Part shown: positions 10,142 through 39,906 of the stretch, piece by piece
Numbering within the stretch: position 1 is the first letter of the stretch
Layout of the letters: each line of letters opens with the position of its first letter
Assembly: GCA_018303325.1 (NCBI GenBank)
Contig: JAGVYH010000006.1
Coordinates: 1 to 42,830, forward strand
Length of the DNA stretch: 42,830 nucleotides
Origin: Candidatus Woesearchaeota archaeon
Lineage (GTDB): Archaea > Nanobdellota > Nanobdellia > Woesearchaeales > DSVV01
Direction of reading: 5' to 3'
Program-made: the position numbers and the translations under genes
Notes under the pieces: generated by a model
The model's input: only the letters and a program-made list of their open reading frames with translations
What the model was told of the DNA's origin: nothing
Databases searched by the model: none

Positions 10142-11005
10142 TTAAGAATTAAGTAATTTTTTACTAACCTCTTGGGTTGTAAGCTTTTTTCTCTTATCTT
10201 TTTCTGGCTCTGCTAAACAATTATCAGACACAATTACTGTTTCTCCTGATGCTAATTCAAGATTTTCTCTGGCATCTCCTGCTATCTTTCCACCTTTTTT
10301 TGCTGCATCTTTATTCTCAATAAAACCAAACGCATTCCTGCCTCTGGCAATCTTTGTTGTTGACGCTTCACCAAGCATTGTAAAAATTAGTTCTAAATCG
10401 TTCATGTGATCTCTTAAATTCTCTTTTTTTAGACCTTTGAATTCTTTGTATTCGCTAGGAGTCATGCCAAATGTGGCTTTTGAAATTTCTGATGTTAATA
10501 TTCCATATTCTTTTTCAGTTTTTACATCTCTTTTCTTCCATTCATCAGTAAGTTCATCTCTTATCGCGATACCTCTAACTCTTTTCTCAATCCAATCTTC
10601 AGAATATCCTTTAGCTTTGTAGATTTCCTTCATGCGTTTTTGGGCTAGTTCAGGATTTTGTATTTCTTGGACACGCTCATAACCAACTTGAGCTAGCCAA
10701 AGTTTGAAAGGTTCTGCTTTTGGTGAAGGAATTGATTGAATAATTCTGAATGCCCCTTCTGTATTTACACAGTTCATATTTTGATTACCACCAGATGTAT
10801 TTACAGAAAGGGTATGTACAATTTGTACCCATCCTTTATCTAGCTCTTCATCTCTTTGTTTCATCTTTTGGATATATTGTTTAGGATCACTAGAATCAGT
10901 TAGTACAAAGACAATATCTTCGATTACAAACCACCACTCTTCATTAAACCAAGTCCTTCTAATTTTCTTTCCTTGAAAGACAACCAACGCATTATTTATT
11001 TCCAT
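10142..11005 (-). CDS. BRO-N domain / DinD-like protein
   Basis: KIRRTWFNEEWWFVIEDIVFVLTDSSDPKQYIQKMKQRDEEL (Bro-N) followed by the DinD-like region TSEISKATFGMTPSEYKEFKGLKKENLRDHMNDLELIFTMLGEAST. Confidence 0.82.
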   Translation of the reverse strand: MEINNALVVFQGKKIRRTWFNEEWWFVIEDIVFVLTDSSDPKQYIQKMKQRDEELDKGWVQIVHTLSVNTSGGNQNMNCVNTEGAFRIIQSIPSPKAEPFKLWLAQVGYERVQEIQNPELAQKRMKEIYKAKGYSEDWIEKRVRGIAIRDELTDEWKKRDVKTEKEYGILTSEISKATFGMTPSEYKEFKGLKKENLRDHMNDLELIFTMLGEASTTKIARGRNAFGFIENKDAAKKGGKIAGDARENLELASGETVIVSDNCLAEPEKDKRKKLTTQEVSKKLLNS

Positions 11006-32483: not shown

Positions 32484-33517
32484 ATGGCAAAAATATTATA
32501 CGCGCTTTCTGGCGAAGGATTCGGGCATGCTACACGAAGCAGTATTATAATCAAAAGATTATCGCAAATTAAGAAAACGTCTCAAATTCACAAAATCAAG
32601 ATTGTTTGCGGAGGGAAAGCGTATTTTTATCTTTCAAAGCACTTTAACGACGTGGAAAAAATACAATCCTTACATATTAAATATTTTAATAATAAAGTAA
32701 GCGGTATCGGCACGTTTTTTGTGAATTTGGTTACATTGCCGCAACAAATATTTTCTTATATCAAAATAAAAAGGCTGATTAAAGAGTTTAAGCCTGATGT
32801 TATCATAAATGATTTCGAGCATTTGACTTCTAATGTTGCATTTTTTAACAACATACCACTTATATCAATAGGAAACCATAATGTGATATCAAATTCACAG
32901 ATTAGTATTCCTTTAAAATATTTATGGGAATCTATTAAATCAAAGCTGGTGATAACTTTTGTAATACCTTCTTCTAATTATTATTTTATAACTACTTTTT
33001 TAAGCCAAAATATAACGGCTACATCTTTGTTTATCAAACCTCAAAAACAAATAATCATCTTATAACCCTTTTAAAAACATTTGATAAACAGTTTATCGTC
33101 TATGGATTTAATATTGACAAAACAGATGGCAATATTTTGTTTAAATCATTTAAGGAAAAAGAGTTTTATAAAGATCTGGCAAACTGCAGTGCAGTTATAA
33201 TCAACGGCGGTTTTTCTTTGATGTCAGAGGCGATTTATTTAAAAAAGCCGGTATATTCTGAACCTGTTAAGGAGCAGTTTGAGCAAATCTTAAATGCAAT
33301 CTATCTGCAAAAGTTAGGTTATGGTCTGTTTGCAGAGACCTCCTGTAAAGAAAGCCTATTAACCTTCTTTTCAAAACTTGATGAATACAAAAAGAATTTG
33401 AATAAACTAAACACAAAGAAATTAGATGATGATTTTGACAAAGCAATTGTAAATATTAATGAGAAGATATTATCTCTTGCCAATACTAAAACTTCGTCCA
33501 ACACCAAAATGAAATAA
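32484..33517 (+). pseudogene. MJ1255-like glycosyltransferase (GT28-like), interrupted by one frameshift
   Basis: ORFs 32484-33065 (AKILYALSGEGFGHATRSSIII) and 33137-33517 (CSAVIINGGFSLMSEAIYLKKPVYSEPVKEQFEQILNA) join by a -1 shift at a T6 run near 32995-33001. Confidence 0.8.
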
Positions 33518-34554
33518 TACTTTTCTCAGAAAATTGCTGTTATACGCTTTATTCAGGAATTTAAACGGATTGTTTTTTGCTTTGTCTACAAAAAATCTGT
33601 ATCCTCCATTGCCAAGCTTTTCGTAGAAAAATCTATTGACTGCGCTTGTTTTTAATTGGTTAACAAAGCGCTCTTTTATTAATTTATCATACAGATAACC
33701 TTTCACTTTCTCAATCTCCCCAATATTATTTCCTTCAATTTCTTTTATCTTGTTTCCTTTAACATCCCTGCTTTCAATTATGCTTTTCGCAGCAAGATAT
33801 CCTGATGTAATTGCATATCTCATGCCAAATCCCCAAAGCTTATCCTGCATTCCCGCTGCTTCTCCAACCCAATATTTCTCGTCTTTAAAATAGTTGTCCA
33901 TGATATGAAAATTTCCAAATCCGCTTATTTTTTTGATATTTGTTTTTTTCACATTAATATAGCAAGCACAGTAGCAATGCACCCTTTCCCTTTGCTTACT
34001 AAAATATATCCGTATGCTTTCGGCGCGATACTGTCGTCAAGAATACCTATAGCAATATCTTTATTGTTTGTTCTGAAAGAAATTCCTACTGCAACCGCGA
34101 AAACATCTTTAGGACCTGATGCTATAATATAAATATTGCTCTTGTCATTTTTTATGTCTTTCTCACTCAATGTTTTTCCATAATGAATTTTGACTCCTGA
34201 ATCTAATGCCTGCTTTTTTAGCCCATAATCAATGCTTCCTTTTAATGCGCCCCTTTGGACAATATAAAACATCGGCCGTTTTGATTTAATTACCTTATCT
34301 TTCAATTTGCTGTCTCTAACATGAAGCACATGATACGGGTTTGCGCTAAAATTAATCTTAATATTCATGGAAGTTAGGTCTTGAAGAATATCTTTCTCCA
34401 TTGACCAGTTTTCCAAACCCTGAAGATCGCCGTTAAAGCGCATGCCAGAATCTTTGTTTTTCTCGTAAACATCTATTTTATACCCTGCTTTTGCCAGATT
34501 TATTGCTGCTGTTAATCCGGACAAACCAGCGCCGAGTATTTTTATTGAAGCCAT
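33470..34554 (-). pseudogene. FAD-dependent oxidoreductase (geranylgeranyl reductase-like), interrupted by one frameshift
   Basis: MASIKILGAGLSGLTAAINLAKAGYKIDVYEK in 33949-34554; YWVGEAAGMQDKLWGFGMRYAITSGYLAAKSI in 33470-33982; overlap in different frames. Confidence 0.82.
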
Positions 34555-35768: not shown

Positions 35769-36743
35769 TCACTCATCATCCTTGCACACATCATAGAAAT
35801 CACACTGCCCCGAATGCCATTTGCATAAAGAAGTAATATTCTTTCGATACTGTTTTTTGTCAGTGGTTTTTGTGTTTTCGTGTATCTTTGCAACTTCTCT
35901 CTTTGCCATCTCAACCAATTCTTTGTCTACATCAAGATACAATGGTGCGCTGTCAAATTTCAGAAAGTCCAAACCTGCTTTTTTCGGCAGAAACCCATAC
36001 TTCTCTTGATATAACAGCGCATATATTGCCAATTGCAGGCGGTATTCAGTCGTAATTACTGCCTTTTTGCTTGTTTTGTAGTCGATAAGATAAACTTCTT
36101 TCTCGCATCTGCTATGAATATTCCCTAAAATATTAGCGTCACTTTTGCCAGAAGGGTTTGAAACATCCTTTTCATATTCATAAATAGCGTCAATAAAACC
36201 TCTGACACCATGCTCCTCTGAAATAAACTCCTCTTCTGTCTTTGGCGTGTGTTTTTTGAAGGCATTTATTAATCCCACTTTGTTCATGTCGTCTGCGATA
36301 TTATGTATAAATCTTTTGAACCATGAAATAACCATTTCTTTAGTTTCCTCGTGGTAGAAATTAATCTCATTTTGCGTTAAGTCAAGATCGTTTATTTCAT
36401 CAGCGTTTTCATTCCAGTGTTTCTTGAACAGTTCCATCAGCACAATCCTTAATTCAAACATGAAATTGCTTTCACTTACTTTAGTTATATCTACTTTAAA
36501 AAAATCTTCAAGAACAGAATGTGTTAACTTGCCTCTTATTAAATGAATTGAAGGAAAAGTTTCAAGCTCTTCGATATAATTATAATAATATTTTCTTGGA
36601 CATTGATTGTAAGTATTAATGGAAGAAGGCGACTGTACTCTTTTGAATTTGTCGCTTTTTATCTCTCTTGCTCTGTGGTTATTCCTTTCTTTTTTATTTT
36701 TTTCACTTGCTTTTTGATTACTTACCCTTTTTTCATCCATCAA
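35769..36743 (-). CDS. PD-(D/E)XK (RecB/Cas4-like) nuclease
   Basis: SSINTYNQCPRKYYYNYIEELE; GKLTHSVLEDFF; VYLIDYKTSKKA; C-terminal CKWHSGQCDFYDVC. Confidence 0.85.
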   Translation of the reverse strand: MMDEKRVSNQKASEKNKKERNNHRAREIKSDKFKRVQSPSSINTYNQCPRKYYYNYIEELETFPSIHLIRGKLTHSVLEDFFKVDITKVSESNFMFELRIVLMELFKKHWNENADEINDLDLTQNEINFYHEETKEMVISWFKRFIHNIADDMNKVGLINAFKKHTPKTEEEFISEEHGVRGFIDAIYEYEKDVSNPSGKSDANILGNIHSRCEKEVYLIDYKTSKKAVITTEYRLQLAIYALLYQEKYGFLPKKAGLDFLKFDSAPLYLDVDKELVEMAKREVAKIHENTKTTDKKQYRKNITSLCKWHSGQCDFYDVCKDDE

Positions 36744-36926: not shown

Positions 36927-38618
36927 CTATTTGTCCCGATTCATGTGATGAATAGCTAATTTTGATAATGCTCTTACAAAGAAATCAGTGAACCTTCTAT
37001 CATAATCATCTGCCCCAGTAACTTGATGCCCTAATTCGTGAACATAAGTTTCAACAAAATCCTCAAGTTTACCCAATCTTGTTCTTTTTATCCCTATATA
37101 CTTAGTCCCATCTTGCTCAGTTATGTGAACTCCGTTTGCACATTCAACTTCCCTACCTGATTTCAAAAATAGACCTGAATAAACACGGACATCTACTGGT
37201 GCTACTTGACCCAACACAACTTCATTTATGGTTTTAACTCTATCCAGCATTTGAGTTTCTGCTTCTGTAAGGTCAGAAGTGCTTACCCACTTGTATTCTT
37301 GTTCACATGTAACTTTATCAGCACTTTGTATACCGAGGCTTGCTAAATAATTTGCAATAGAAATATTCAATCTAACTGTCGTATATCCCATCAGTTTTGC
37401 ATCCTTATTGGCATTCACATCATGTGAAGCAATTACAGCATTGACTCCGTATAGTTTTCTAAATGAAGTGACCCACAAATTCTCTGGTGGATATTTATTA
37501 AATATGTATTTCTTGATTAAATCCGTCTTTCCTTTTCTTTCGGATAAATCTCTTCTCATAGTCAATAACATCATCCTATTTTGTGGTAGTCCTCTATCTC
37601 TAAATGCTTCAAACTCATCACAATATCTTTCTGAGGTCTGACATGCAACAGCCAATACTCTCTCAATTATTTGGGTATTACTACAATTTTTTAGTATACT
37701 TTCAATCTCATCAAGAACGCTATTTCTATCTGCAAATATTCTGTCAGGTGAGATGTTTTCTATTCCCAAATCATAACTAAAAATGGAATTCGTTTCTTGA
37801 ATTATTACTCCTTTTATGAAGAGAGCAGTTTCCTCCGTTCCCAAATCAATGATTCTTGAATTGTATCCCCATGATTTTGTTGGTGCTTTTCCTTCGATAC
37901 CTAAAGAGGGAGTAAACAAATTCCCTACTGGTTGTATATCTGAATTGATTAATCCTTTAAAATCAACTTGAGAACAGTCTATGATATATGGATTGATTAA
38001 TCCTTTAAAATCAACTTGAAAATAGTCTATGCTGTCTTTTTCACTATATAGCTCCCGATAAGTGTCATTAAGAGCTAACACTTTGTTAGGAAGTTGAAAC
38101 ACCTCATCCATTAATTCTTGAGATGGATTTGTAAAGACTGTTCTTGAGCCTGCTAGATTATCGCCGTTTTCTGTTACTCGGAAGCAAAGTCTGCTTATAT
38201 TATGCCCCCCTATGTTTTCTGGTTTTGTATAAGGAGAAGCCATCCAATTCCTGGAACGGTATTCTACCTTTAAACCATGACGGATGGCTGCTGTAGCGAC
38301 GAGTTTTAAACCCTCTCCAAACTGACCAACGCTTAAATCATCAGCTGCTTTTGGAGAAAAGAGAACTGATAGCAAACCTGCGTCGTATCCGAAGCCGTTA
38401 TCCTCAAATATAACTTCTTCTGCGGGTTGTGTTGGGTCAGCTTTTTTCAAATCTGCCCATTGACCATCTTGTTTAATTCTTACCGTAGTCACCGTTCCTT
38501 TACTATCAGCAGGAAGATGATTAGAAACGCTATCCAAAACAATTCTCTCTATACCCCATGCAGATTTTCTATAATCTGTTGTTAATGAGGTTTCAATATC
38601 ATAGGTTGTTTTAGACAT
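36927..38618 (-). CDS. GHKL-type ATPase with C-terminal HExxH metalloprotease-like region
   Basis: N-box AWGIERIVLDSVSNHLPAD; FEDNGFGYDAGLL; VGQFGEGLKLVATAAIRHG; VETYVHELGHQVTGADDYDRRF. Confidence 0.85.
   Translation of the reverse strand: MSKTTYDIETSLTTDYRKSAWGIERIVLDSVSNHLPADSKGTVTTVRIKQDGQWADLKKADPTQPAEEVIFEDNGFGYDAGLLSVLFSPKAADDLSVGQFGEGLKLVATAAIRHGLKVEYRSRNWMASPYTKPENIGGHNISRLCFRVTENGDNLAGSRTVFTNPSQELMDEVFQLPNKVLALNDTYRELYSEKDSIDYFQVDFKGLINPYIIDCSQVDFKGLINSDIQPVGNLFTPSLGIEGKAPTKSWGYNSRIIDLGTEETALFIKGVIIQETNSIFSYDLGIENISPDRIFADRNSVLDEIESILKNCSNTQIIERVLAVACQTSERYCDEFEAFRDRGLPQNRMMLLTMRRDLSERKGKTDLIKKYIFNKYPPENLWVTSFRKLYGVNAVIASHDVNANKDAKLMGYTTVRLNISIANYLASLGIQSADKVTCEQEYKWVSTSDLTEAETQMLDRVKTINEVVLGQVAPVDVRVYSGLFLKSGREVECANGVHITEQDGTKYIGIKRTRLGKLEDFVETYVHELGHQVTGADDYDRRFTDFFVRALSKLAIHHMNRDK
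37944..38040 (-). repeat. In-frame 48-bp tandem duplication
   Basis: Encodes QVDFKGLINPYIIDCS QVDFKGLINSDIQPVG; attgattaatcctttaaaatcaacttga repeated at 37944 and 37992. Confidence 0.88.
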
Positions 38619-38754
38619 CTTTTACCTCTTCCAAATATTTCTGTGTTGCCAACTCAATAAAATGACTTTTATTTCTATAAATTTCATTTTTCACAATCTT
38701 CTCAACATCCTTTAATGTGAGGTCTTCCATTGATATTGATACCTTTATCTTCAT
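38611..38754 (-). CDS. Ribbon-helix-helix-like small protein overlapping the GHKL gene start
   Basis: MKIKVSISMEDLTLKDVEKIVKNEIYRNKSHFIELATQKYLEEVKDV*; stop overlaps the next start by 8 nt. Confidence 0.65.
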   Translation of the reverse strand: MKIKVSISMEDLTLKDVEKIVKNEIYRNKSHFIELATQKYLEEVKDV

Positions 38755-38839
38755 CGTAAGAAGTAGTAAATATTGCTACTATTTAAATGTTTCTATTTTG
38801 TAACTACTATTTAGTTATAAACCTAATTTCGCCACTTCT

Positions 38840-39850
38840 TGAGAGTGACTACTGAAACGAAAGATATAAATATAACTTAATTCTAAGAATATACAGTTTT
38901 TACGTCATGAAATAGGTGTTTTTATGCCAAAGAAAAGAAGAAAATTAGATGTATTCTGTCAAAACTCTAAATGTAGGGATTTCAATAAAAAAGGTCTAAA
39001 AAATATTGTTCGCAACGGAAAAAAGAAAAATGGAACTCAAAATTACAAGTGCGCTACTTGTAATGTTTCTTTTGTCAGAACAAAAGGCACACCATTATAT
39101 TATTCAAAACTTCCAAAAAAAGAAGTAGAAAATATTTGTAATCATTTCTCTGAAAAAAATAGTTTTAGGGGGATATCAAGAACAACGAAGCATTCTCTTA
39201 ATGCAGTTTATCGAGTAGCAAATAAAGTTGGAAAACATTGTGAAAAAATAGATGAAAACTATTTAGTTAATCTGGATTTGGATATGGTTGAAGCTGACGA
39301 GATGTTCAGCTTCATAAAAAAAAGGAGAAAAATTGCAATCACTATGGCTTCAAAAACTGCGAGACGGGCACGAACTACACATACATAGCTCTTAAAAGAA
39401 AATCACGGTTAATGCTCAAACCTTTCGTCGGTAAATTGAATGAAATTAGCTGTCTGGAATTCTGGAAAGAAGTAAGTAAACGATTTATTCCTGCTACTGC
39501 AAAATATAAATTCAATACTTGTACCGACGGGAACAAGCAGAATCTCTCTGCTTTGCAAATTGCTTTTCAAAACGGAACTGTAAATTATTCTAAAGTTAAA
39601 AAAATAAGAAATGGAGATATTGTTATTGGTATGATTAACAAGTGTATTTTAGGAAATATGCCGAAAGAAGAAATAGGAATTAGGCATATTGATGGTTTTT
39701 GCGCAAGGCTTCGAGAAAGAGTTTCAAGATATTGCAGAAAATCAAAAACTTTCTCAAAAAAGAAGACACCATTTTATCTGCATCTTTTCAAAAAAGTGGA
39801 ATTGGAAAGATGTTTTTATAGATTATTGTCAGTCATCTTAGTAGTCACTC
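38840..39850 (+). mobile_element. IS1-like insertion sequence
   Basis: Inverted repeat gagagtgactact near 38840 / agtagtcactctc near 39838 flanking a two-frame transposase. Confidence 0.72.
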
Positions 39851-39906
39851 TCCTTTACCTGTGTTATCATCTTCTGATTCATTATTATCAACCATATATT
39901 AAATAA
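38924..39906 (+). CDS. IS1-like transposase in two frames joined by a possible -1 frameshift at an A8 run
   Basis: Zinc-ribbon CQNSKCRDF...NYKCATCNVSFVRTKGTPLYYSKLP, VEADEMFSFIKKK; frame shift gives continuous KKKEKNCNHYGFKNCETGTNYTYIALKRKSRLMLKPFVGKLNE. Confidence 0.78.

Follow-up and report, generated by a model that had tools for sequence, protein, structure and literature searches.

In a Candidatus Woesearchaeota genome, the gene for a tiny ribbon-helix-helix (RHH) protein overlaps a gene whose product fuses a GHKL-type nucleotide-binding domain to a zincin-like domain (GHKL-zincin). We give a probability of roughly 0.5 to the explanation that this is a chromosomal accessory cassette in which an autorepressed, interchangeable RHH header drives a nucleotide-gated zinc protease. 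Computational analysis supports both domains, the conservation of the zinc-site residues and of a promoter palindrome, the reuse of the header and the diversity of its cargo. Judged from the sequences, the GHKL-zincin fusion is a real, patchy family, and its pairing with RHH exemplifies a broader header-cargo arrangement rather than a dedicated toxin-antitoxin (TA) system.

The gene pair and its surroundings

The window, i.e., the whole stretch of DNA that was analyzed, is 42,830 nucleotides long and corresponds to positions 1-42,830 of the forward strand of contig JAGVYH010000006.1 in assembly GCA_018303325.1 (GTDB lineage Archaea; Nanobdellota; Nanobdellia; Woesearchaeales; DSVV01). An initial annotation made from the DNA letters had described a 563-aa ORF bearing GHKL motifs and HELGH, and a 47-aa RHH-like ORF overlapping its start by 8 nt; the ORF coordinates agree, and the motifs lie where they had been placed (Table 1). 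The 563-aa frame is regarded as a real gene because relatives with 28-59% identity keep the motifs and because H527, E528, H531 and D538 are invariant in 21/21 aligned archaeal, bacterial and viral relatives, a diverse set.

Table 1. Features of the RHH/GHKL-zincin locus (positions of the window)
Feature	Position	Strand	Basis
Candidate RHH operator TAGTAGCAATATTTACTACTT, palindrome	38761..38781	(-)	axis at -17 from RHH ATG; footprint and palindrome tests
TATA-like box, archaeal	38782..38787	(-)	at -33 from RHH ATG; -33 to -36 in 8/8 loci
Tiny RHH protein, 47 aa	38611..38754	(-)	ORF; RHH_1 model; kept in 8 GHKL-zincin loci
GHKL-zincin fusion protein, 563 aa, ATG start	36927..38618	(-)	ORF; homologues in archaea, bacteria and viral contigs; AF2 pLDDT 82.4
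GHKL nucleotide-site motifs: D29xxxN33 (N-box), DNGFGYD 73-79 (G1), VGQFGEGLK 97-105 (G2)	38304..38534	(-)	near-invariant alignment columns; Foldseek
Tandem repeat 2 x 48 bp, duplicated stretch of disordered linker	37936..38031	(-)	sequence; AF2
Zincin-like C-terminal domain, 184 residues (likely)	36930..37481	(-)	AF2 pLDDT 94.6; abylysin match
Zinc-site motif H527-E528-x-x-H531-x6-D538	37005..37040	(-)	invariant 21/21

Profile searches place the two proteins only loosely. Pfam matches the 563-aa protein to HATPase_c (E=0.003) and residues 5-43 of the 47-aa protein to RHH_1 (E=0.023), both under the curated cut-offs, and the uncharacterized PHROG entry phrog_6077 matches the 563-aa protein at 5e-8. 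NCBIfam and PADLOC searches gave nothing convincing for either protein; the top match among the PADLOC models of known defence systems, PtuB (E=0.023), is at chance level and does not make the pair a member of any of them.

Both neighbors named by the initial annotation are present, as a PD-(D/E)XK/RecB-like ORF and an IS1-like ORF. The nuclease (35769-36743) was rejected as a third component, as it is not conserved at other GHKL-zincin loci. The IS1-like transposase ORF (38924-39388) is followed by a second ORF (39412-39906) within 38924-39906 (+), possibly a frameshifted or decayed copy. Elsewhere in the window, an FAD/NAD-binding oxidoreductase (33470-34554 (-)) appears to be divided between two frames that overlap, probably through a frameshift; a glycosyltransferase-like reading at 32484-33517 (+) is in two ORFs (32484-33065, 33137-33517), possibly also a frameshift; and a Bro-N-like protein (10142-11005 (-)) resembles one that adjoins the truncated GHKL-zincin of G018 (L021 5846-6691 (-)). 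Apart from RHH, no neighbor of the effector recurs across families in the loci compared, which show no common defence island. Synteny around GHKL-zincin is kept among G259, G378 and G399, and neither plasmid nor viral linkage was found for the archaeal form.

The GHKL-zincin protein and its family

Comparison of structure models helps to classify the N-terminal module. In the AF2 model of the 563-aa protein, built on a 21-row alignment, the N-domain matches Hsp90 and TopoVI-B in Foldseek, so that the Bergerat domain that the initial annotation had proposed is supported, and this fold together with the N, G1 and G2 motifs places the protein in the GHKL superfamily. Of the annotated N-box, the motif region stands, but its acid is Asp in nearly all archaeal relatives and not the canonical Glu; the usual E-x-x-x-N form is seen in L033, a relative from a phage. 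With Asp as the N-box acid in the archaeal clade, hydrolysis is possibly slow or absent. The GHKL-zincin model shares the Bergerat fold with the Hsp90/TopoVI-B ATPases, but differs from them in this substitution and in its fusion to a zincin-like domain. Linker residues 199-249 are disordered in the model (pLDDT below 50) and, in this genome, contain the 48-bp tandem duplication.

The C-terminal module carries HELGH at residues 527-531, followed by D538, which would be the third zinc ligand; an HExxH motif with a candidate third ligand is what is expected of a zincin metallopeptidase. Modeled alone, this domain reaches high confidence (Table 1), and among credible PDB matches in Foldseek the minigluzincin abylysin ranks first (prob 0.98, TMt 0.61, E 0.15). 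The best matches in the PDB structure search include zincins, though none has E<0.001; a zincin fold, as annotated, is therefore likely. Minigluzincins such as abylysin and other small zincins are similar in their HExxH domain and probably in fold, whereas GHKL-zincin has an invariant Asp seven residues past the second His and a fused GHKL domain, and the likeness has no significant E-value. A zincin profile run against PDB sequences gave weak matches only (Aip56, E=0.004; SprT-like; NleC), and these were discarded as evidence of kinship. Searches of open-licence papers for GHKL with zincin or metallopeptidase domains yielded no account of a fusion of the two.

The family has the accessory-type distribution that the annotation had supposed. 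GHKL-zincin matches occur in 14/295 sampled genomes of the same order (~5%) and in 15/335 at the phylum level, and the carriers whose records bear a name belong to uncultured archaea of the Woesearchaeota type. Further carriers came from scanning GTDB species genomes: one each from Pacearchaeota, Nanosalinarum, Parcubacteria and Clostridia. In the tree, 16 archaeal rows form one supported group (98/97); RHH accompanies the gene in 8 of these, was scored as absent in 6 and was unscorable in 2. Among the 6, G250 later proved to have an RHH gene one gene farther upstream. A directly upstream RHH is missing from about half of the core archaeal clade.

Two kinds of duplication suggest that pairs of GHKL domains may be the working unit: fused double-GHKL proteins in G006:C46, the Parcubacterium and the Clostridia genome, in which the zincin follows only the second GHKL copy, and a tandem gene pair in G280, whose second gene has lost HExxH. 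A 50-aa ORF upstream of the G006:C46 gene is AbrB-like by eye and has no Pfam match.

Several copies are damaged (a frameshift in G250, truncation at the contig end in G006:C13 and in-frame TAG codons in AR15 and G089), which indicates that selection on the gene is not uniform. The TAG codons are the sole interruptions of these frames, one in the AR15 copy (L055 7305-8903) and two in the G089 copy (L061 6753-8411). A pyrrolysine reading was rejected, as neither genome has a PylRS above the cut-off; decay is the likelier cause.

Two viral contigs bear zincin-bearing GHKL homologues, and these led to matches with 95% coverage in Moorella and Exiguobacterium phages; all are shorter versions. Such phage homologues, together with structural matches to RIIA-like phage proteins, are consistent with an rIIA-type protein of phage-derived or anti-phage nature, in which the GHKL domain would recognize a partner and the zincin would be a variable C-terminal domain acting in conflict. 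T4 rIIA-like proteins likewise have an N-terminal GHKL domain, a different C-terminal domain, phage relatives and a sporadic distribution; to our knowledge, they have no RHH header. The orthologues of rIIA are described as combining a GHKL ATPase with a variable C-terminal domain in counter-defence (PMC7824862). However, the likeness to GHKL-zincin is structural and weak, and no archaeal virus carrying the RHH/GHKL-zincin cassette was found in the searches made, so this explanation is rather doubtful. Derivation of the archaeal protein from a virus or a plasmid was itself rejected, as no close viral or plasmid relatives were found and viral contigs yielded no RHH header.

A conserved promoter and a reused RHH header

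The RHH gene recurs, as had been anticipated. It lies directly before the effector gene and overlaps it in 8 GHKL-zincin loci (the window, G015, G006:C13, G013, AR15, G280, ARS1180 and the RIFCSP 30_43 genome), encoding proteins of 44-51 aa, and a ninth locus has one gene in between. Upstream DNA of the 8 loci has a mean pairwise identity of 0.66 in -40..0 (z=25) and falls to background level beyond -70. The conserved segment includes the palindrome AAGTAG..CTACTT, which adjoins the TATA box across the RHH/GHKL-zincin loci; its self-complementarity, 0.625, is above all shuffles (maximum 0.50). Counting TACTA relative to a Markov null gave a weak signal, as that null itself included the motif; positional tests and AT-matched controls were used instead. 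Although RHH and GHKL-zincin each occur without the other, as would be expected of functionally unrelated chance neighbors, the 8 overlapping pairings, which span several families and share a conserved promoter, make mere coincidence highly improbable.

The same header extends far beyond GHKL-zincin. A profile built from these RHH proteins finds relatives in 143/335 sampled genomes of the phylum, and the header loci analyzed were drawn from the upper part of its ranking. At the 65 loci where a downstream ORF could be reached, the encoded proteins group into 44 unrelated clusters, MoxR-type AAA proteins among them. The two genes overlap at 57/65 loci, most commonly by 4 nt, with the ATG closest to the RHH stop taken as the start codon, a choice that biases the counts toward overlap. 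Among 62 cargos, Pfam identifies protein kinases (7), AAA_5 ATPases (5) and HATPase_c_3 proteins (2), as well as ChaN-like, amidase, transglutaminase and NUDIX proteins; PADLOC matches are chiefly to kinase models. Many unrelated, uncharacterized cargos, including membrane-like and MoxR-type proteins, are seen at header loci L127, L129, L130 and L132-L199.

GTAGTA/ACTACT words are enriched ~10-fold upstream of RHH in 68 header loci relative to AT-matched windows of the same loci. A TATA-like pattern is present in 42/68 headers and a downstream CTACT in 17/68, which indicates that the operator is not uniform over the wider RHH family. In G378:C51 and G356, near-identical RHH genes and promoters precede unrelated cargo, which argues for exchange. 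No open-licence paper linking ribbon-helix-helix proteins with Woesearchaeota was found. As the same header family precedes many other cargos, RHH would be a generic control element and GHKL-zincin one of its payloads.

These observations bear on the initial proposal of an antitoxin-like RHH regulator for the 563-aa protein, and on its reading as a type II TA pair in which a protease toxin is neutralized by the bound RHH protein. Such a pair would account for the overlapping genes with the small DNA-binding gene first, for the promoter-proximal palindrome and for the patchy, often broken locus. However, RHH_1 fills nearly the whole 47-aa protein and leaves no C-terminal toxin-binding tail, the family precedes kinases, AAA ATPases and other large proteins, and many GHKL-zincin genes have no adjoining RHH. 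RHH is thus neither a classical antitoxin nor dedicated to this protein, and a TA pair is quite unlikely.

A related possibility is that the activated zincin cleaves RHH and thereby derepresses the operon. ImmA-ImmR and RosmerTA consist of a small DNA-binding protein adjoining an HExxH protease. These systems and IrrE-DdrO use HTH proteins and have no GHKL domain, whereas here the regulator is an RHH protein of a family common to many cargos. IrrE-DdrO, in which the metalloprotease cleaves the repressor encoded next to it, is the nearest precedent for such a switch (PMC5552922). Although the cassette likewise sets a putative HExxH protease beside a small candidate repressor, most RHH relatives head other kinds of cargo, so that relief of repression cannot generally hinge on the GHKL-zincin protease. 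Moreover, GHKL-zincin genes without RHH exist, and the window's candidate operator has one exact copy in the 1.97-Mb assembly; there is hence no evident regulon, and one outside the locus was rejected. A switch of this kind is accordingly unlikely.

Proposed mechanism and significance

For the autorepressed cassette, the following mechanism is proposed. The RHH header would bind the AAGTAG..CTACTT palindrome by its own TATA box and repress the dicistronic transcript, and the gene overlap would couple translation of GHKL-zincin to that of RHH. The Hsp90/TopoVI-B-like GHKL domain would bind ATP and probably dimerize, and the dimer would gate the C-terminal HExxH...D zinc protease. When a signal relieves repression, GHKL-zincin would be produced, and the dimer, closing under the action of ATP, would license cleavage of one or more putative target proteins. 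A role in conflict or stress response is a guess.

Known regulators offer partial parallels. CopG-type minimal RHH autorepressors are ~45-50 aa long and belong to an autoregulated operon with a second gene; the header is similar in size and in its predicted autoregulated operon with a second gene, but its cargo here is not a replication initiator. CapW/BrxR are regulators that head diverse immune operons. Like these, and like CapK/CapS, a small regulator family also heading diverse immune operons (PMC13373217), the RHH header is one small family placed before different effector genes; unlike them, it has a different fold, and a role of its cargo in immunity would be conjecture.

More broadly, and tentatively at somewhat less than even odds, an interchangeable header consisting of a tiny RHH protein and the AAGTAG operator may silence a large set of accessory proteins in DPANN archaea, unrelated to one another and potentially costly, until they are induced, with GHKL-zincin as a new nucleotide-gated protease effector in that set. 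If true, two things would be new: a protein family, in archaea, bacteria and phages, that fuses an Hsp90-type ATP switch to a zinc protease, and a repressor header that recurs in many DPANN genomes ahead of dozens of unrelated genes. The header, i.e., promoter and RHH gene, would then provide a handle for finding coordinated accessory or conflict genes in these mostly uncultured organisms.
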